Shown: piece by piece, positions 13,176-31,169 of the stretch
Position numbering within the stretch: the first letter of the stretch is position 1
Layout: every line of letters begins with the position of its first letter
IMG/VR virus record: IMGVR_UViG_3300030104_004282
Location: 6,744-52,099 of that record
DNA length: 45,356 nucleotides
Source of the DNA: a virus
Reading direction: 5' to 3' (one strand)
Position numbers and translations under genes: made by a program
Notes under the pieces: model-generated
What the model was told of the DNA's origin: nothing
Seen by the model: only the letters and a program-made list of their open reading frames with translations
Databases searched by the model: none

Positions 13176-14099
13176 ATGAAAAGTACATATGACTCAGGAA
13201 ACCCAACAAGGAATTTTTTCCGTTGGATAACAGAGCGGCACAACATTTTTGTAAAAAAGAAAACTTTTCGAGATCCACCTTGGACTGAAGACAGTATTTT
13301 ACAAACCTACAAGTTCACAAACCCTTTTCGTGAGAATGATAAAGTTACAGTATGGATGAGGAAGTACTGGACTAGGCCAAATGATAACCGCCCTCATGGT
13401 GAAATTATTTTTAATTGTTGCTTGTTTAGAATGATAGGTACAAGTGAGTTTGCCCATGATCATGGTTGGGTAACTGAGTGGGATCCCACTAGAACAAAAG
13501 AAATTATTGATGGAAGACTTGCTAAAGGTTTACGAACTTTTACAGGAGCGTATATAATTACTAATCAAGGTCTAAAAGCTAAAAAGTCGGAGGTCGTTGT
13601 TGACCATTTTCTTAACCCTATCTGGCAAAATAAAGAAGCGTTGGCAGAAACCGCTTCCCAGACAAACTCGCTCCAAAAAGTACACCAAGCGATGGCTACC
13701 TATCGAGGGTGGGGAGGGGGAGGCTTTATGTCATATGAGGTGGTTACGGACCTCAACCACACAACTGTATTGGATAAAGCAGAAGACCGTTTTACTTGGG
13801 CAAACGCAGGACCAGGAGCGGTGAGAGGTCTTAACCGAATACATGGTAGAGAATTAAATAAGAGTTTAAACCAGAAACAAGCTAATGAGGAAATGTTTGA
13901 CTTGCTACAACTCGCAGTTCCGTGCATCACATCTGATATTAAAAAAGAAACAGTTGATATGCGTACCATAGAGCATAGTTTGTGTGAGTGGGATAAGTAT
14001 GAGCGTGTGCGGTTGGGACAAGGTACTCCTCGCAGTAAGTACAAGCATAAACCAAAATTGAAAATATTAAAACATGAGGAAGTAAGTTGGAGGAATTAA
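13176..14099 (+). CDS. Alpha-glutamyl/putrescinyl-thymine pyrophosphorylase-like protein
   Basis: The 307-residue protein carries the pattern I associate with the AGPT-pyrophosphorylase / 5-hmdU DNA kinase helical-domain family. The segments are FFRWITERHNIFVKK, PPWTEDSILQTYKFTNPFR, then FMSYEVVTDLNHT and AGPGAVRGLNRIHGR near the C-terminus. Known relatives act in hypermodification of thymine in phage DNA, replacing activated hydroxymethyluracil with another group. No P-loop kinase domain is fused here. Adjacent genes for a glycosyltransferase, a radical SAM enzyme and a ThyA homologue support a base-modification role; the exact chemistry is inferred. Confidence 0.7.
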   Translation: MKSTYDSGNPTRNFFRWITERHNIFVKKKTFRDPPWTEDSILQTYKFTNPFRENDKVTVWMRKYWTRPNDNRPHGEIIFNCCLFRMIGTSEFAHDHGWVTEWDPTRTKEIIDGRLAKGLRTFTGAYIITNQGLKAKKSEVVVDHFLNPIWQNKEALAETASQTNSLQKVHQAMATYRGWGGGGFMSYEVVTDLNHTTVLDKAEDRFTWANAGPGAVRGLNRIHGRELNKSLNQKQANEEMFDLLQLAVPCITSDIKKETVDMRTIEHSLCEWDKYERVRLGQGTPRSKYKHKPKLKILKHEEVSWRN

Positions 14100-14102
14100 A
14101 AA

Positions 14103-14381
14103 ATGAAACAACCTTATTCAGGATTGGGAAACAGATGCTCAGACGATTGCCTAAAGTACCATTTAGTACATCATCTAGCGAGGGACATGGGGACAGAACC
14201 ATACAAGTTTCCGATAACGATGAAGTGCAAATGTCTATCGATAACTTTGACATCGGGACAATCCGAGACCTCCTTGCAAAAAGAAGAAGTAGTGAAGAGG
14301 TGGACACCGACAATATCTAACGAACGTGTGCTACATATAGATAGGTTAGCAGACGCAAACATTCCATGGGAGGACAAATGA
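14103..14381 (+). CDS. Small Cys/His-containing hypothetical protein
   Basis: The 92-residue protein has its ATG preceded by GGAGG at 8 bases. Its stop overlaps the next start (ATGA), which supports this frame over a competing one. The N-terminal segment GNRCSDDCLKYHLVHH and later KCKC could bind metal. It lies inside the modification cluster and may be an accessory protein; I recognise no family. Confidence 0.5.
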   Translation: MKQPYSGLGNRCSDDCLKYHLVHHLARDMGTEPYKFPITMKCKCLSITLTSGQSETSLQKEEVVKRWTPTISNERVLHIDRLADANIPWEDK

Positions 14382-14704
14382 GAGCAGGAGATTACAGAGA
14401 CCACGAAAAACCACCAAGAATAATGACGCAACGAGAAAAAGATGCACGGAGAGAAAAGAATAAATGTGCGGAGTGTGATTGTTTTGGTATTTATTACAAC
14501 GAAAAACGAAACCTTTACTATTGCCAAAGGCATAGTCCTAAAAGACCAATTAGCGAAGAGTTTGCATTAAAACCTATTGAACGTGACAAAAGAAACAGTT
14601 ATGTTATTTCTAATAGAATTAAAAATCTTAATGATGAAACAAGGACAAAACTATATAAAGGATTACATTATAATCCTAAGTTAAAGACATGGAGCAACTC
14701 ATGA
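14378..14704 (+). CDS. Small protein with a possible zinc-binding motif
   Basis: The chosen ATG at 14378 overlaps the previous stop and has GGAGG about 6 bases upstream; an in-frame ATG lies 12 bases earlier. The 108-residue product is basic, with CAECDC...YYCQRH, which could coordinate zinc (two CxxC-type pairs at about residues 30-52). It overlaps the glycosyltransferase start by ATGA, so the three genes are probably translationally coupled. Confidence 0.6.
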   Translation: MRAGDYRDHEKPPRIMTQREKDARREKNKCAECDCFGIYYNEKRNLYYCQRHSPKRPISEEFALKPIERDKRNSYVISNRIKNLNDETRTKLYKGLHYNPKLKTWSNS

Positions 14705-15492
14705 TACCTATATTTATTCCAACTAGAGGAAGAATAAACACACAAAATACTTGGGACGCTATTGGTCCAGAAGCTAGAGAAGTCGCACGGCTTGTGTGTC
14801 CTACGGAAGAAGTAAAGCACCACGAGTGGCTAGACAGAAGGGTGTTAGACAGGGGTGATGTTAAAGGCATTAATAATGCTAGACAATTTATAATAGACCA
14901 TGCAGTGGAGGAAGGTCATGATAAGATTATTATTCTGGATGACGATCTTAAGTTTAATCGTCGTGAATCTGCCGAACATTCTAGGTTAAGAAAAACTCGG
15001 CAACCTGAAATGGTGGAGTTATGGGAAAAAATGGAGGGGTTGCTTGATGGATACCACCATGTAGGTTTAAGTCCTCGCCAAATGAACGACAAACATTGGC
15101 CACACACAGTTCAATACGGAATGAGGCAAAATGCTGTTCATGGTATTACACCACGAATACTACATAAACATAACATTCGTTACGATAGTATGCAGTTAAT
15201 GGAAGACTATTATGTTACACTCAAATTGTTTTTAAAAGGAATAGGTAACGCAGTTATTGTAGACTGGACTTGGGATCAACGAGGTGCTAGTGGTGCAAAG
15301 GGAGGCTGTAGTACATACCGCAATGCTGAGTTACAAGAACAGCAAGCACGCAAACTTAGCGAAGAGTTTCCCGACCATGTTAAGTTAGTTGAAAAAACGA
15401 CTAAAACAGGTTGGGAAGGAATGAAAACAAGATGGGACGTAAAGGTTTCATGGAGAAAGGCATTTAAAGATGGACAAGCAAGACCCTCCTAA
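14701..15492 (+). CDS. TAGT-like glycosyltransferase (base-modification associated)
   Basis: I place the start at the ATGA overlap (14701) with GGAG 7 bases upstream; an upstream in-frame ATG lies at 14689. The product begins MIPIFIPTRGR, a GT-A type opening, and has IIILDDDLKF with a DxD-like nucleotide-sugar/metal site at about residues 80-89. A GMRQNAVHGITP segment and an LMEDYYVTLKL segment follow. This fits the TET/JBP-associated glycosyltransferase (TAGT) group, which is predicted to glycosylate hydroxymethylated bases. The neighbours make a DNA-base substrate likely, but sugar and acceptor are not shown. Confidence 0.65.
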   Translation: MIPIFIPTRGRINTQNTWDAIGPEAREVARLVCPTEEVKHHEWLDRRVLDRGDVKGINNARQFIIDHAVEEGHDKIIILDDDLKFNRRESAEHSRLRKTRQPEMVELWEKMEGLLDGYHHVGLSPRQMNDKHWPHTVQYGMRQNAVHGITPRILHKHNIRYDSMQLMEDYYVTLKLFLKGIGNAVIVDWTWDQRGASGAKGGCSTYRNAELQEQQARKLSEEFPDHVKLVEKTTKTGWEGMKTRWDVKVSWRKAFKDGQARPS

Positions 15493-16456
15493 TGCTGTAC
15501 AAGTAGAGTTAGTTGAAGGTTGCAATTTAGGTTGTTCTTTTTGCGGCATACAAGCTATTAGGGACAATGGTGCAGACGGACCAAAAAACATACATGGCAA
15601 ATCCTCTGGACCATACAAAATTCTTACTATGGAAACCGCTACAAAAATTGCTAATGGAATAAAGAATGCAAAGTGGAATCCACGCATTGAATTTGCCATG
15701 CACGGTGAACCAACTATGCACCCTGATTACATAACTATGATTAAACTATTCAGACAAAAACTACCTAAAGCACATTTAATGATGACAAGTAATGGTGGTG
15801 GTTTGTTGCGTGACGTAAACGGTACAGTCAACGGTTTGATGGAAGCAGGACTAAATGTATTATTTTTAGATAACTACGACAGAATTAAAATTGTTGATAA
15901 AATACAAGAAAAGTACAGAGGACCATATCCAGTTTTTCCGTATCCCCAAAATAAAAATGCAAACCCTCATAAAAGACGTAAACCAAGCGAACACCATATT
16001 GTTGTAGGAATGGATTTGACGTTAGCTACAAACGGTACTCATGCACAAGTCAGTAATCATGCAGGTTCAGCTTTCCCTTTAAACTATAAACAGAGAGGCA
16101 AAAGGTGTGCGAAGCCATTTAGAGAAATGAGTATAAGGTGGGACGGTAACGTAGCAGTTTGTTGTAATGACTGGGCGGGAATATATAAGTGTGGAAATAT
16201 AAATGATACAAGTATGGAAGAAGTGTGGCACGAAAAACCTTTTCAAGCCGCAAGAGTAAAACTGTACCATGGACAACGAGATTTTGGTCCGTGCAATGGT
16301 TGTGATAACGTAACTTTGCGGAATGGTTTATTGCCTGACCGCATGGGTCATAATTCTTTACCTGAGCCGACGATGCAAGTTAACCAGATAATAAATAAAG
16401 CTATGTCTGGCCAATCCTATACTCCGTTGGTAAAGAAGCATTATGACTTTAATTAA
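15470..16456 (+). CDS. Radical SAM enzyme with C-terminal Cys-rich (SPASM-like) region
   Basis: The 328-residue protein has the radical SAM cluster motif EGCNLGCSFCG (Cys18, Cys22, Cys25). An EFAMHGEPTMHPD segment suits the SAM-binding GGE-type motif. The C-terminal half has further cysteines (KRCAKPF, AVCCNDW, YKCGN, GPCNGCDN) that could hold an auxiliary iron-sulphur cluster. The gene overlaps the glycosyltransferase by 23 bases. Radical SAM enzymes occur in predicted phage base-modification clusters, so action on a modified thymine or its sugar is a reasonable inference. Confidence 0.8.
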   Translation: MDKQDPPNAVQVELVEGCNLGCSFCGIQAIRDNGADGPKNIHGKSSGPYKILTMETATKIANGIKNAKWNPRIEFAMHGEPTMHPDYITMIKLFRQKLPKAHLMMTSNGGGLLRDVNGTVNGLMEAGLNVLFLDNYDRIKIVDKIQEKYRGPYPVFPYPQNKNANPHKRRKPSEHHIVVGMDLTLATNGTHAQVSNHAGSAFPLNYKQRGKRCAKPFREMSIRWDGNVAVCCNDWAGIYKCGNINDTSMEEVWHEKPFQAARVKLYHGQRDFGPCNGCDNVTLRNGLLPDRMGHNSLPEPTMQVNQIINKAMSGQSYTPLVKKHYDFN

Positions 16457-16476
16457 GGCCTCAGAGAAGGCTTTTG
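16455..16476 (+). terminator. Short intrinsic terminator
   Basis: A GGCCT/AGGC-type stem of about 7 pairs (outer pairs A-T and G-T) with loop CAGAGA is followed by TTTT, directly after the radical SAM stop. It is weak but well placed. Confidence 0.45.
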
Positions 16477-16513
16477 TGTTGCATATAGTGTAGCTATAAG
16501 CATAATAAAAAAG

Positions 16514-16527
16514 AGCCGTATACGGCT
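16514..16527. repeat. Perfect palindrome between A-runs
   Basis: AGCCGTATACGGCT is a perfect 14-base palindrome with AAAAAAG before it and AAAAAA after it. As a hairpin it would act as a terminator only on the minus strand. It could also be an operator for a symmetric protein in front of the ThyA-like gene. Confidence 0.55.
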
Positions 16528-16555
16528 AAAAAATGGCACATAGAAAGGTGGTTAA

Positions 16556-17611
16556 ATGGTAGTAAATAATTATAATAATATGCGTGGTGTCCACAGCTTT
16601 GTCACTGGTAATGTTAGTGAAGCGTTGTGGCTTGTCAAGCAAAAAATAGAAGTAGACGGTGTACTTGTTGAAACAAGGAATGGTAAGGCAAAAGAATTAC
16701 TTGAGCCTTGTTGTATAGTTTACAATAACCCTTGCGAAAGAGTTTTATTTTATCCCGAACGTGATGCTAACCCTGTCTTCCATTTCATGGAGAGTTTGTG
16801 GATGTTAGCTGGAAGAAGGGACGTAGAATGGATCAGTATGTTCAACAATGGCATAAGTCAGTACAGCGATGATGGTGTGTTGTTTCATGCCGCTTATGGT
16901 CACAGGTGGCGAGAGTCATTTGGCTACGACCAAATACCAATGGTTGTTCATAGGTTATGCACTTACCCAAATGACAGAAGGGCGGTGCTTACAATGTGGG
17001 ATCCAGATAAAGATTGTTCATTAAGTAACGAAGCTAAAGACTATCCCTGCAACACACATATTTATTTTAGAAGCCAAAATGGTAAGCTAGACATGACAGT
17101 GTGTAACCGCAGTAACGACATGATATGGGGTGCGTTTGGAGCAAATGTTGTGCATATGTCTATATTGCAAGAATACATTGCCGCACGATGTAAGTTAGAG
17201 GTGGGGATATATACGCAGATTACAAATAATATGCACGCATATTTAGATACCTTAAAAACACTTGACGGTATGAAACCTGACTATGATTCGTATGCTTCAC
17301 GCATAATCAAACCTACTCCATTGTTTCCGCAGACCTTTGACGATGTGCAGTTCCAAAATGAGCTTACGGCATTTATTGACACAACACTCGCTTATGGTAT
17401 GGGAATCCCTTTATTTGGTCAACTTGATTTAAGGTTTCATGAGTTTGCTAGCTACAAAATGCAGATGTTTGAAACTCTGGCTATACCCATGTTTAGAATG
17501 TGGATGGAGTGGAAACGTAAAGATATGAAAAAAGCGTTTGAGTATTGTTCACAAATAAAACCTGATGATTGGCATATAGCTTGTTGGGAATGGTTAGAAA
17601 GAAGACAATGA
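16556..17611 (+). CDS. Thymidylate synthase family protein, possible dUMP hydroxymethylase
   Basis: The 351-residue protein has the TS core: AYGHRWR (113-119), the RRAVLTMW phosphate-binding arginines (141-142), the catalytic Cys165 in DYPCNTH, and RSNDMIWGAFGANVVH. In classical TS the last motif reads RSxDxxLGxPFN; here it has a different residue pattern and about one extra residue near the base-binding Asn. Such divergence is found in pyrimidine hydroxymethylases. With the neighbouring modification genes, synthesis of 5-hydroxymethyl-dUMP is as likely as dTMP. It starts after a TAGAAAGG leader. Confidence 0.8.
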   Translation: MVVNNYNNMRGVHSFVTGNVSEALWLVKQKIEVDGVLVETRNGKAKELLEPCCIVYNNPCERVLFYPERDANPVFHFMESLWMLAGRRDVEWISMFNNGISQYSDDGVLFHAAYGHRWRESFGYDQIPMVVHRLCTYPNDRRAVLTMWDPDKDCSLSNEAKDYPCNTHIYFRSQNGKLDMTVCNRSNDMIWGAFGANVVHMSILQEYIAARCKLEVGIYTQITNNMHAYLDTLKTLDGMKPDYDSYASRIIKPTPLFPQTFDDVQFQNELTAFIDTTLAYGMGIPLFGQLDLRFHEFASYKMQMFETLAIPMFRMWMEWKRKDMKKAFEYCSQIKPDDWHIACWEWLERRQ

Positions 17612-26265: not shown

Positions 26266-26820
26266 ATGGCAAAAGCAAAGGTCACACACAAAAACAAATT
26301 AGAGGTCGTAGCTAACCCCAGAGTTGAAGTTGGGTTGTCCCCCAAGCAAGAAAAGTTTGCTATGATTTATGCAACTGAAGAGGTTACACAAACCGAAGCC
26401 GCCCTACGAGCAGGTTACGCAGAATCAAATGCCCATGCTATCGCAAGCCGTATGCTCAACGGCAGAGATTACCCCAATGTTTTGGAAAGGGTGCGACAAA
26501 TAAAAATTGAACTGCAACATAAGTTTGAAGTCTCTTTTGAAAGCCATGTAAAGAAGTTAGCAGAGTTGCGTGACACTGCTTTACAGAACGGAGCTTATGC
26601 GGCCGCTGTGAGTGCTGAAAAATCTAGGGGACAAGCGGCAGGTCTATACATTGATCGCAAAGAAATACTTATGGGTAAGATAGATCAGATGAGCCGTGAC
26701 GAAGTTATGAAAGAAATAAACAGGTTACAAGAAGAGTTCCCACAAATAGTTAACAACACCGAACCTGTTATAGACATGGATAAAATTGAGCTACACCCAA
26801 AAGCTAATGAAGAAAACTGA
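26266..26820 (+). CDS. terS: Terminase small subunit
   Basis: The 184-residue protein has the Terminase_2-type N-terminal HTH motif: LSPKQEKFAMIYATEEVTQT, then EAALRAGYAESNAHAIASRML. A helical oligomerisation region and an acidic tail follow. It would recognise the packaging site and recruit the large subunit. Unusually, the large subunit gene lies almost 2.9 kb downstream, separated by a nuclease gene and an accessory island. Confidence 0.8.
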   Translation: MAKAKVTHKNKLEVVANPRVEVGLSPKQEKFAMIYATEEVTQTEAALRAGYAESNAHAIASRMLNGRDYPNVLERVRQIKIELQHKFEVSFESHVKKLAELRDTALQNGAYAAAVSAEKSRGQAAGLYIDRKEILMGKIDQMSRDEVMKEINRLQEEFPQIVNNTEPVIDMDKIELHPKANEEN

Positions 26821-27298
26821 AAGCAAATTATGGCTCATGCTCAGGCAAGGCACGACCGATATGAATGTGCATTGGTCACGGATAGAGTCATGGAGTCTTC
26901 CAGGAATACCTGATTTAAACGGCTGTTGTGACGGGATGGAGTTTTGGGTTGAACTCAAGGTTCTTACGACAAAGAGTGACAAGAAGTTTCCTAAGTGGCG
27001 TCCGCATCAAATAGCTTGGCAGACTCAGCGTTCATCGGTTGGTGGTATCGTTTGGAACTTGGTTCATCATCCTTCGTCCAACCGCCTCTATCTTTTGGAT
27101 GGTAAGCACCTCGCAAAGAGATTGATTGATGACGACCACGGATGGGACGCAGAGTTTGAATGTCCGTCGGTGATGGATAGAGACGGATGGATGGATATAC
27201 TCGTGCATATGCTTCATCATTCTTCTTCGGTCGTCCGTCGTAAGTCTTCGCCAAGAGTCATAATGAGTCAATGTGAGTCGCATCCCAGGGAAAACTAA
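26807..27298 (+). CDS. PD-(D/E)XK nuclease, VRR-NUC-like
   Basis: The start at 26807 overlaps the small terminase end by 14 bases. The 163-residue protein has the nuclease core: LPGIPDLNGCCDGMEFWVELK, that is the PD...ExK pattern, followed by a basic helix. This fits VRR-NUC or phage resolvase-like enzymes that cut branched or packaged DNA. Its last codons (RVIMSQCESHPREN) recur in altered form about 730 bases downstream, after the next gene. Confidence 0.65.
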   Translation: MKKTESKLWLMLRQGTTDMNVHWSRIESWSLPGIPDLNGCCDGMEFWVELKVLTTKSDKKFPKWRPHQIAWQTQRSSVGGIVWNLVHHPSSNRLYLLDGKHLAKRLIDDDHGWDAEFECPSVMDRDGWMDILVHMLHHSSSVVRRKSSPRVIMSQCESHPREN

Positions 27299-27411: not shown

Positions 27412-27861
27412 ATGGCTAAAAAATCTAAATCCAACCCTACCGTTGAGGTAGCAACTTTTCAGGGCATCAACAGCATAGGTGCTGACCGCCTAGCTGAAGG
27501 CTGTAAGCCTACTGACTTGTATACTTTTATGCAGGAGCACGCAGGCGGCAATCCTCGCAATGTTGGCATCCGCATGATAAACGGTGTTACTGCTGACAAG
27601 CCTTTTCCATTTGAAACTACAATGTTTGATAAGGACACTGGTGAGCCAAACCACCAGCGACGAGGACTTGTTATGTGGGCTTTGATAAATGGTAATGGTG
27701 CTGACCATTATACTTTGTTTGACTGCCAACAAGACCATAGGAGCATCAAGTCTCCTGCTCAAGGTGTTAAGGGTTTAATTGATGTCCTTAATGGTGGCCA
27801 GTCACGCAACAAGAAAACATGGGGACAGTCATACGCTGAACTTTATGTGATACCTGCATAA
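27412..27861 (+). CDS. Accessory protein A, paralogue of the 28929 gene
   Basis: The 149-residue protein matches no family I know. Key segments are VEVATFQGINSIG, NVGIRMINGV, RGLVMWALINGNG, KSPAQGVKGLIDVLNGGQ and NKKTWGQSYAELYVIPA. The same order of motifs (VATF, VGIQ, IMWAAIGG, SPRQNAVMALLNGG, SPTWAVPQAQL) occurs in the protein at 28929. The two therefore appear to be paralogues, with this one having normal composition, including 7 Glu and 10 Asp. The gene has its own leader and strong terminator, and is bracketed by the GAGTC repeats, like an inserted cassette. Confidence 0.65.
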   Translation: MAKKSKSNPTVEVATFQGINSIGADRLAEGCKPTDLYTFMQEHAGGNPRNVGIRMINGVTADKPFPFETTMFDKDTGEPNHQRRGLVMWALINGNGADHYTLFDCQQDHRSIKSPAQGVKGLIDVLNGGQSRNKKTWGQSYAELYVIPA

Positions 27862-28734: not shown

Positions 28735-28797
28735 ATGGCAATCACAGCATTAGTTGCAACTGTAACTACAATACTAATTTTAAACATGGCGAAGTAG
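28735..28797 (+). CDS. 20-residue membrane micropeptide
   Basis: AAAAGG lies 8 bases before the ATG. The product MAITALVATVTTILILNMAK is a single hydrophobic helix. Its end overlaps the first bases of the GA/TC-free stretch. Confidence 0.4.
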   Translation: MAITALVATVTTILILNMAK

Positions 28798-28799
28798 CT

Positions 28800-28859
28800 A
28801 TGCAAAAACGCCTAGCCGCTACGGCAAAAAAACATAGTAATTGGGCTTTACAATGCTAA
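28800..28859 (+). CDS. Possible 19-residue peptide in the leader
   Basis: An ATG two bases after the previous stop opens a 19-codon basic frame (MQKRLAATAKKHSNWALQC). It lacks a clear ribosome site, so it may be a leader peptide, translated by coupling, or chance. Confidence 0.2.
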   Translation: MQKRLAATAKKHSNWALQC

Positions 28860-28928
28860 TGTAAAGTATTAATGTATATTTGTTGGCGGCAATTAAGCTA
28901 CCAACTTAAACCAAAAAGGGTACACAAA

Positions 28929-29465
28929 ATGGGTACAAAAGTTAAAACAACCAAAGCGGCAGTTGCCACGTTTAGCAACGCTAACAATTTAAATGCCAAT
29001 GCTATTAACGCTTTTATAGCGGCAAATGGCGGCCTAGCAAAAGTTGGCATACAGCTATTGCCAACAGCAATTAGCGGCAATGGTACGCTATTTGGTGGCA
29101 ACGCAACACGTGGCCTATGGGCCGCTTGCCAAGCACGCAACGGCAAATATGGCCACTGTGGCCAAATTATGTGGGCCGCTATTGGCGGTTTACCTAGCCA
29201 GTTTTGGCTACCAACAGCCAACGGCTACAAGGCAAGCTATGCCAAAAAAGGTGGCATAGCGTGGCAACCAACGGCCACAGTACCAACAGCAGTTGGCCAA
29301 GCTGTGCCACTGCTAGCAGTACACGCCATAAGCCGCAACAGCGGTAGCAGTGTTACCACCAACAGCCCACGCCAAAACGCTGTTATGGCGTTGCTAAACG
29401 GTGGGTTTAGTGCCAACAGCCCAACGTGGGCTGTACCACAGGCACAGTTGGTTGCCCTAGCCTAA
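28929..29465 (+). CDS. Accessory protein B with no acidic residues, in the GA/TC-free stretch
   Basis: The 178-residue protein starts after AAAAAGGG; a longer frame from 28872 exists. It has no Asp or Glu, because GAN codons are impossible. It carries about 8 Lys and 4 Arg, so it is strongly basic. Ser is coded only by AGY, Arg only by CGN, Ile never by ATC, and the stop is TAA. It shares an ordered set of motifs with the 27412 protein: VATF, VGIQLL, IMWAAIGG, SPRQNAVMALLNGGFS, SPTWAVPQAQLVALA. Many Ala, Gly, Asn and Thr suggest a small-residue-rich globular or DNA-binding protein. No family is recognised. It lies just upstream of the large terminase gene. Confidence 0.75.
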   Translation: MGTKVKTTKAAVATFSNANNLNANAINAFIAANGGLAKVGIQLLPTAISGNGTLFGGNATRGLWAACQARNGKYGHCGQIMWAAIGGLPSQFWLPTANGYKASYAKKGGIAWQPTATVPTAVGQAVPLLAVHAISRNSGSSVTTNSPRQNAVMALLNGGFSANSPTWAVPQAQLVALA

Positions 29466-29472
29466 CACCAAC

Positions 29473-29503
29473 AGCGGTTGCCAAAAGGTACTTGGCAACC
29501 GCT
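29473..29503 (+). terminator. Perfect 12-base-pair hairpin after gene B
   Basis: AGCGGTTGCCAA (29473-29484) pairs exactly with TTGGCAACCGCT (29492-29503) around a 7-base loop, 8 bases after the stop. It lacks a T-run but is well placed to stabilise or end the transcript. Its sequence respects the GA/TC exclusion. Confidence 0.55.
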
Positions 29504-29696
29504 AGCCACAGCCAAACGGCCATTTAAAAAGGCCACACCCCCTTGCCGCTGACCAACGTGTAAATGTGTTAGCGTTTACACTGATTTGGACAAATCGTTA
29601 GTAGTGGTTTAATTATGGTATACCCCCACCCCCCTTTTTGATGCGGATGCCCATAGGTTCATTGCTTTTTGAAAATTTTTGTAATATTTAGAATCA
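29504..29696. other. Intergenic region before the large terminase gene
   Basis: The GA/TC-free stretch ends at 29551. A GTGTAAA/TTTACAC stem lies at 29558-29581, and a C-rich tract (CCCCCACCCCCC) followed by TTTTT occurs at about 29625-29639. No gene is seen. Its position between the accessory island and the large terminase gene makes it a candidate for packaging or promoter signals, without proof. Confidence 0.4.
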
Positions 29697-31169
29697 ATGA
29701 GTAATGTACCATTGAACATTCCTGAAGATAAACTGAAGGAGTACGCTCGCCTTTTACAGAGACAGAACCAGTTCAGCTCGTCCGATCTCGCGAGAAAGGA
29801 CTTTATGCACTACTGTAAATCGGTATGGCCTGAATTCATAGAGGGCAAACATCATAAGATAATGGCACAGAAATTCAATGCCCTAGCTACAGGTAAGATA
29901 AAAAGGTTAATTGTCAATATGCCGCCACGACATACGAAGTCGGAGTATGCGAGTTATTTATTGCCGAGTTGGTTAATGGGTTTGAATCCAAAGTTAAAGG
30001 TTATACAAGCTACGCACACAGGCGAGTTGGCCGTTCGATTTGGACGTAAGGTGCGTAATTTGATGAACTCTAACGATTATTCGTTGGTTTTCCCCGAGGT
30101 GAAGTTGCGGCAGGACAGTTCTGCGGCAGGTAGATGGGATACTTATCAAGGTGGTGAATATTTTGCGGCAGGTGTTGGTGGTGCAATAACAGGTCGTGGT
30201 GCGGACCTTATGATAATTGACGACCCCCATTCCGAACAAGATGCCCTAAGTCCAGCGGCAATGGAAAATGCTTATGAATGGTATACAAGTGGTCCAAGAC
30301 AAAGACTTCAGCCTGGAGGAGCTATTGTAATTGTTATGACGCGATGGTCCGAGATCGATTTGACAGGTAAACTGTTAAAGCAACAGGCTCGCGATATATT
30401 GGCTGACCAATGGGAGGTTGTTGAGTTTCCTGCGTTGTTGGACGACGAAAAGGTGTTATGGCCAGAGTTTTGGAAAAAGGAAGAACTGTTAAAGGTGAAG
30501 GCTTCGTTGTCGGTTGGCAAGTGGGAGGCTCAGTGGCAACAGAATCCAACATCCGAAACGAGTGCTATTTTAAAGCGGGACTGGTGGCAAATGTGGAAAA
30601 AGAAAGATATACCCCCACTAAGTTATGTGATGCAAAGTTATGACACTGCATATAGCAAACAGACAACCGCTGACTATAGTGCTATAACAACGTGGGGAGT
30701 TTTTTATCCCGAGGAAGGTGGACCTCCGAACATAATTCTTTGCGATGCCCGACGTGGTAGGTGGGACTTCCCCGAGTTACGACGTGTAGCTATGGAGGAA
30801 TACGATTACTGGGATCCCGAATGTGTGTTAATTGAAGCTAAAGCGAGCGGAATGCCATTGACCCAAGAACTACGGCAAATGGGTATTCCAATACAGAACT
30901 ATAGTCCAAGTCGGGGGAACGATAAGTTCACTCGTGTGAATTCAGTTGCACCTTTACTAGAAAGTGGGTTAGTATGGACGCCAGATACAAGATGGGCAGA
31001 AGAGGTGATAGAAGAATGTGCGGCATTTCCAGCAGGGGAGAACGATGACTACGTTGACACCGTTACACAAGCGTTACGACGATTCCGCGAAGGTGGTTTC
31101 ATTCAACACCCAGAAGATTATAAGGAAATTGCGAACTCACCGCCAAGAGCACAAGCGTATTATGGATAA
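29697..31169 (+). CDS. terL: Terminase large subunit
   Basis: The 490-residue protein has an ATPase Walker A variant VNMPPRHTKSE (K81), Walker B LMIIDDPHSE at about residues 170-180, and an RNase H-type nuclease domain with SYDTAYSKQTTADYSA and VLIEAKASG. The order and length are typical of phage large terminases. It powers DNA packaging and cuts the concatemer. The ribosome site upstream is weak. Confidence 0.93.
   Translation: MSNVPLNIPEDKLKEYARLLQRQNQFSSSDLARKDFMHYCKSVWPEFIEGKHHKIMAQKFNALATGKIKRLIVNMPPRHTKSEYASYLLPSWLMGLNPKLKVIQATHTGELAVRFGRKVRNLMNSNDYSLVFPEVKLRQDSSAAGRWDTYQGGEYFAAGVGGAITGRGADLMIIDDPHSEQDALSPAAMENAYEWYTSGPRQRLQPGGAIVIVMTRWSEIDLTGKLLKQQARDILADQWEVVEFPALLDDEKVLWPEFWKKEELLKVKASLSVGKWEAQWQQNPTSETSAILKRDWWQMWKKKDIPPLSYVMQSYDTAYSKQTTADYSAITTWGVFYPEEGGPPNIILCDARRGRWDFPELRRVAMEEYDYWDPECVLIEAKASGMPLTQELRQMGIPIQNYSPSRGNDKFTRVNSVAPLLESGLVWTPDTRWAEEVIEECAAFPAGENDDYVDTVTQALRRFREGGFIQHPEDYKEIANSPPRAQAYYG

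Follow-up and report, generated by a model that had tools for sequence, protein, structure and literature searches.

Why would a phage gene be stripped of two dinucleotides in their entirety? The question arises in a stretch of DNA of 45,356 nucleotides (the window), taken from a 52-kb IMG/VR virus record. There, the original prediction had singled out a segment next to the large terminase gene, terL, as free of both GA and TC, had judged chance implausible and had favoured a constraint on nucleic acid over one on protein.

A transcription unit without GA or TC

Recounting the window gave zero GA and zero TC between positions 28792 and 29551 (Table 1). The base composition of this interval predicts about 94 of the two together, and the frequency of GA+TC in the 20 kb around it predicts about 79. 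The second-longest GA/TC-free run in the whole window is 63 b, and among the other strand-symmetric dinucleotide classes the longest runs reach 299 b (CG) and 198 b (GC). In a 20-kb locus that carries the same island (L004), the log10 E of such a run is about −33, which together with the run statistics rules out chance, as had been supposed. TC alone is missing over 853 b (28743-29595), and the island has a GC content of about 0.5, higher than the rest of the genome.

Table 1 Coordinates of the island, its transcription unit and selected genes in the window
Feature	Position	Strand	Basis or remark
PF18723 HMUDK_hel protein (5-hmdU DNA kinase family / aGPT-PPlase1)	13176-14099	+	E 1.4e-48
TAGT glycosyltransferase (PF20691)	14689-15492	+	Domain match
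Radical SAM + SPASM protein	15470-16456	+	Domain match
Thymidylate synthase homologue, predicted dUMP hydroxymethylase	16556-17611	+	phrog_5131 (E 1e-103), PF00303
Gene A, 149 aa, paralogue of B	27412-27861	+	Ordinary GA/TC (39 sites); internal control
20-codon hydrophobic ORF directly 5′ of B	28735-28797	+	Similar ORFs in relatives
GA/TC-free island, 760 b	28792-29551	.	Recount, run-length scan
Putative promoter (TTTACA, 17-b spacer, TAATGT)	28847-28875	+	Read in sequence
AAAAAGGG, ribosome-binding-like, without GA	28913-28920	+	Read in sequence
Gene B, 178 aa, without Asp or Glu, pI 10.6	28929-29465	+	Family without known homologue or fold
3′ hairpin GCGGTTGCCAA-AAGGTAC-TTGGCAACCGC	29474-29502	+	Terminator-like, no clear T tract
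terL	29697-31169	+	Marker for locating orthologous islands

As read from the sequence, the island is a single transcription unit with a putative promoter, a leader, gene B and a 3′ hairpin that marks its predicted end, and terL follows. The probable start of B is the ATG at 28929; the ATG at 28872 chosen by the ORF caller falls in the leader. A palindrome, TTTACAATGCTAATGTAAA (28847-28865), overlaps the putative promoter. The TTTACA box and a leader hairpin are found again 5′ of B in relatives, which also carry hairpins at the position matching the B 3′ hairpin. The expected consequences of the exclusion were all confirmed: B has neither Asp nor Glu, its 11 Ser codons are all AGY, its stop is TAA and AAAAAGGG lies ahead of its start. 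Recoding the B protein with the phage's own codon usage gave a mean of 34.5 GA/TC and a minimum of 20 in 5,000 draws, against none observed, which rules out protein constraint as the cause. This simulation, along with depletion that extends to the promoter, agrees with the earlier preference for a constraint on nucleic acid.

An internal control is provided by gene A, a paralogue of B (BLASTP E 6e-4, plus a family alignment) about 1 kb 5′ of the island, which has 39 GA/TC sites where 47.8 are expected from phage codon usage. In bacterial and archaeal genomes, gene A has no relatives that we could find. Searches with 43 members of the B family against Pfam, PHROGs and PDB sequences returned nothing significant. 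A structural model of the B family (pLDDT 86) has a small alpha/beta core but no convincing structural relative (best PDB Foldseek E 0.76, VIA-align Z ≤ 4.8). The acidic-free B protein of the window was modelled with a pLDDT of 77 and a similar order of elements. Possible roles for B include early expression from modified DNA, anti-defence and action as a shut-off factor.

The exclusion is conserved but lineage-dependent

The window's TerL shares 57-62% identity with the TerLs of the Pelagibacter phages HTVC027P and HTVC023P and of 023Pt_psg01 and DSL-LC04, and the replication genes are in the order primase, helicase, PolA, as in the HTVC023P-type lineage. From viral contigs we fetched 80 relatives of TerL and 80 of the kinase listed in Table 1; whole or most contigs were examined for about 27 genomes, and further loci were added afterwards. 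In an unbiased scan of 768 word classes, the GA/TC class was the top match just 5′ of terL in many contigs. A clade of marine, pelagiphage-like contigs carries orthologous islands of 580-1026 b (the longest in L398) directly 5′ of terL; in L002, an independent contig, the island over gene B measures 768 b. Nineteen contigs with distinct B genes are strict, with no GA and no TC in the coding sequence. Further B genes include 18 that are ordinary, 6 that avoid GA only and 8 that are intermediate. Among island carriers, GC content ranges from 0.32 to 0.54, and B protein identity falls to about 25%, so that recently shared sequence is not the reason for the island. The original prediction had proposed testing whether homologues lack GA/TC even as their proteins diverge; those in the strict contigs do.

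In the other depleted genomes, TC is near zero and almost all of the remaining GA (42 of 45) lies in Asp or Glu codons, which are impossible without GA. One allele, L014, follows a narrower rule, avoiding DGA/TCH and tolerating CGA/TCG: its 9 GA are all CGA and its 7 TC all TCG, and the rule is identical on both strands over 970 b.

The rule is lineage-dependent and not universal for gene B. Homologues with similar proteins and normal GA/TC content, which the original prediction had named as a refutation, do occur in part of the clade. On the TerL tree, depletion is found on both sides of the clade's deepest split, and ordinary B genes are found in the G006/G041/G042 group and in G032. Parsimony gives three changes, a count compatible with gain and with loss alike; early depletion followed by later loss is the simpler reading. 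We found no other avoided word in the relatives with ordinary B and, among broadly shared gene families, no gene that separates strict from ordinary-B genomes. Within the TerL set, A and B genes turned up solely among relatives of 78-85% identity, the closest ones; HTVC023P and HTVC027P gave none.

Selection against GA and TC at the DNA level

L002, a 94%-identical relative, differs from the window by 68 substitutions in the island, none of which creates a GA or TC. When the same 68 substitutions were placed at random, they produced a mean of 20.3 GA/TC, and zero was reached in 0 of 20,000 simulations. This sequence comparison shows purifying selection against GA/TC in the island.

With the ordinary-B genomes as reference, GA/TC in the 19 strict genomes falls to a ratio of 0.04 in both the 5′ UTR and the trailer. 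The promoter stands at 0.12 and the 40 b 5′ of the −35 box at 0.21, and beyond these 40 b the ratio recovers to 0.78; the P values for this regional depletion are too small, as the genomes are related. Depletion over the promoter and about 40 b upstream implies a constraint on DNA and not on mRNA only, and argues for an exclusion that acts at the DNA level. B is the sole strongly depleted family of the 52 gene families tested. The major capsid genes show no depletion, which rules out high expression by itself as the special need of B.

Predicted thymidine-hypermodification genes

The window encodes a set of enzymes predicted to hypermodify thymidine (Table 1). By homology, the thymidylate synthase gene is present in 27 of 27 genomes and the PF18723 kinase gene in 26 of 27, the exception being a partial contig; kinase and thymidylate synthase thus co-occur with the island. 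Where terL was found in kinase-positive contigs (n = 28), it is at least 72% identical to that of the window. A motif scan of called ORFs found Walker A motifs in three other proteins of the window and no P-loop kinase beside the PF18723 gene; Sonora and SN1 differ in having an annotated P-loop partner kinase.

The enzyme encoded between kinase and thymidylate synthase varies. Some genomes have TAGT with radical SAM and others a GT4-type glycosyltransferase; a third type of protein has no Pfam match but resembles a glycosyltransferase by eye. The GA/TC rule occurs with all three types. Because the decorating enzyme has been swapped in at least three ways and the rule kept, the rule tracks a shared step. 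Related phages swap the content of this slot (14100-16556 in the window) as a cassette, which in some cases includes an FkbM methyltransferase. In most genomes the kinase gene has a conserved DUF932 gene as its neighbour; in G048 the DUF932 gene is broken into two ORFs (L185:19142-20000, L259:1-169), and our clustering found none in G058.

Using the restriction resistance of DNA from Pseudomonas phage M6, Salmonella phage ViI and Delftia phage phiW-14, Flodman et al. inferred a TG or TC context for its hypermodified T and ascribed this preference to the 5hmdU DNA kinase (PMC6449724). A base-modifying enzyme, one of several agents raised in the original prediction, thereby becomes the best candidate, with the hypermodification genes predicted here and an inferred TG/TC preference in the family.

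A proposed hypermodification-free unit and the alternatives

As the best explanation, to which we give slightly less than an even chance, we propose that the island is a unit held free of the word targeted by the phage's own T-hypermodification system. The predicted enzymes would modify T in 5′-TC-3′ on either strand, a target that we infer for this clade, and gene B would be a modification-free gene within an otherwise modified genome. Its transcription would then be independent of the modification state of the template. A bulky base may impair the reading or regulation of B, and B may be needed at a time when modification of the DNA is complete, such as immediately after injection. The L014 rule, being the same on both strands, points to double-strand recognition of a T-containing motif. 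Slightly more tentatively, the virus may have purged the dinucleotide of its own modifying enzyme from one whole unit, promoter to terminator, and so made it immune to a genome-wide hypermodification, at the price of all acidic residues, with the normal gene A and the immune gene B read in different modification states.

Several observations fit this proposal less well. B is ordinary in G006, G041, G042 and G032 despite their apparently intact kinase and thymidylate synthase genes, and a search for a changed or truncated kinase in the ordinary-B genomes gave nothing clear. The published motif is TG or TC, whereas TG is plentiful in the island (48 occurrences), which counts against the hypermodification reading. 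The six GA-only alleles (L347, L363 and L364 among them) carry 6-23 TC, and B in L324, L326 and L377 has low TC and ordinary GA. Neither pattern is expected under a strictly strand-symmetric agent, unless modification of the template and coding strands differs in effect. A consistent template-strand bias, suggested by the six GA-only alleles, is contradicted by L324, L326 and L377. The different rules followed in the closely matching G048 and G050, the P-loop partner kinase not seen in the window, the missing islands in other phages of the kinase family and the undepleted capsid genes also count against the hypermodification reading.

Those GA-only alleles would instead suit evasion at the RNA level, in which an endoribonuclease or an RNA-binding shut-off factor of host or phage acts at GA/UC in the B transcript; coding-strand GA alone is avoided in them, and the deepest depletion is in the 5′ UTR, coding sequence and trailer. 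We nevertheless consider this unlikely, since the promoter and the 40 b upstream, which should be untranscribed from this promoter, are depleted 5-8 fold in the 19 strict genomes and the L014 rule is reverse-complement symmetric. The B alleles themselves prompt another alternative. Over the length they share, G048 and G050 match at 98-99% and their kinases are nearly identical, but the B of one is strict and that of the other nearly GA-only; G038 and L009, whose TerLs are sisters, likewise differ in rule along with the B allele. The basic B protein might thus bind or attack nucleic acid at GA/TC and silence other genes, its own gene being without the target and the rule travelling with the allele. 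The faster evolution of B than of its paralogue A (80% against 94% identity where the paired TerLs agree at 95% or more) fits this idea, and a shut-off factor that spares its own gene is conceivable, the ACA-less genes used with MazF being an analogy. It is nonetheless doubtful: ordinary-B proteins are very similar except for Asp/Glu changes, the modelled B fold matches no nuclease or other known protein, and every other phage gene retains GA/TC. Divergence between the otherwise nearly identical G048 and G050 peaks locally in gene B (L185 versus L257), with 44 mostly synonymous differences in about 600 b, and B alleles seem, from such comparisons, to have been exchanged between phages.

The constant position of the island directly 5′ of terL would allow a packaging or origin role, as noted at the outset, and a landmark for packaging, a replication origin or a terminal repeat might be kept unmodified or uncut. 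We found no support for it and hold it to be very improbable: the borders follow the promoter–gene–hairpin unit, the size varies over the range given above, ordinary-B relatives have the same arrangement without an island, and contig end overlaps coincide inconsistently with it. A mutational origin, also entertained at the outset, fares worst. TC-specific deamination of the DddA or APOBEC kind affects TC and GA on both strands and could in principle have erased both words. However, the island exceeds the genome in GC, its reading frame is intact, and the substitutions that separate it from its close relative run in all directions without creating GA/TC, so that we regard deamination as scarcely credible.

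Comparison with known systems

The thymidine-hypermodifying phages M6, ViI and phiW-14 share the PF18723 kinase family with the window, and M6 also has a thymidylate synthase homologue, yet these and others of the kinase family have no island. M6, Sonora, SN1, ViI and phiW-14 contain no island free of GA/TC or of TG/CA (longest runs 51-97 b), and tblastn found no A or B genes in the phage collection. The passages of the HTVC023P-type pelagiphage study that bear on these genes place thymidylate synthase and aG/PT-PPlase1 near PolA in clades V, VIII and IX, and make no mention of an island (PMC9599517). The cultured HTVC023P and HTVC027P lack the kinase, the A and B genes and the island, all of which the window has.

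A modification motif at the dinucleotide level, GA, exists in the 7-deazaguanine phages CAjan and 9g, although the base differs from thymidine; in CAjan the G in GA is reported to be modified. Neither has a GA/TC-free island (longest runs 81 b in CAjan and 69 b in 9g), and no 7-deazaguanine pathway was seen among the window genes scanned. In restriction-site avoidance and in the ACA-less transcripts associated with MazF, a short word is removed by synonymous choice, whereas here a dinucleotide is wholly gone from one unit including its promoter, and Asp and Glu are given up. Our searches of the literature turned up no relevant account of a dinucleotide-free phage gene. To our knowledge, no gene has been described that dispenses fully with a dinucleotide from promoter to terminator, for as much as 1 kb, even as identity between its proteins drops to about 25%. 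Should the modification reading be true, phage DNA hypermodification carries a cost or a signal for a specific gene, the target motifs of uncultured modification enzymes can be read from sequence alone, and the effect of modified bases on transcription becomes testable.

Neighbouring elements

ORFs resembling the one directly 5′ of B lie, in relatives, inside a GA/TC-free (L170) or GA-free (L347) stretch. Between B and terL is a palindrome-like sequence, GTGTAAATGTGTTAGCGTTTACAC (29558-29590), and relatives, ordinary-B genomes included, have an inverted-repeat element after a C-rich tract in the same place. Could this element be an operator, a promoter or a packaging site? Finally, a RecU-like nuclease gene (26786-27298; a weak match, E 1e-3) lies between terS and gene A and is present in 27 of 27 genomes; no other family exceeds its expected GA/TC content as strongly (ratio 1.23).
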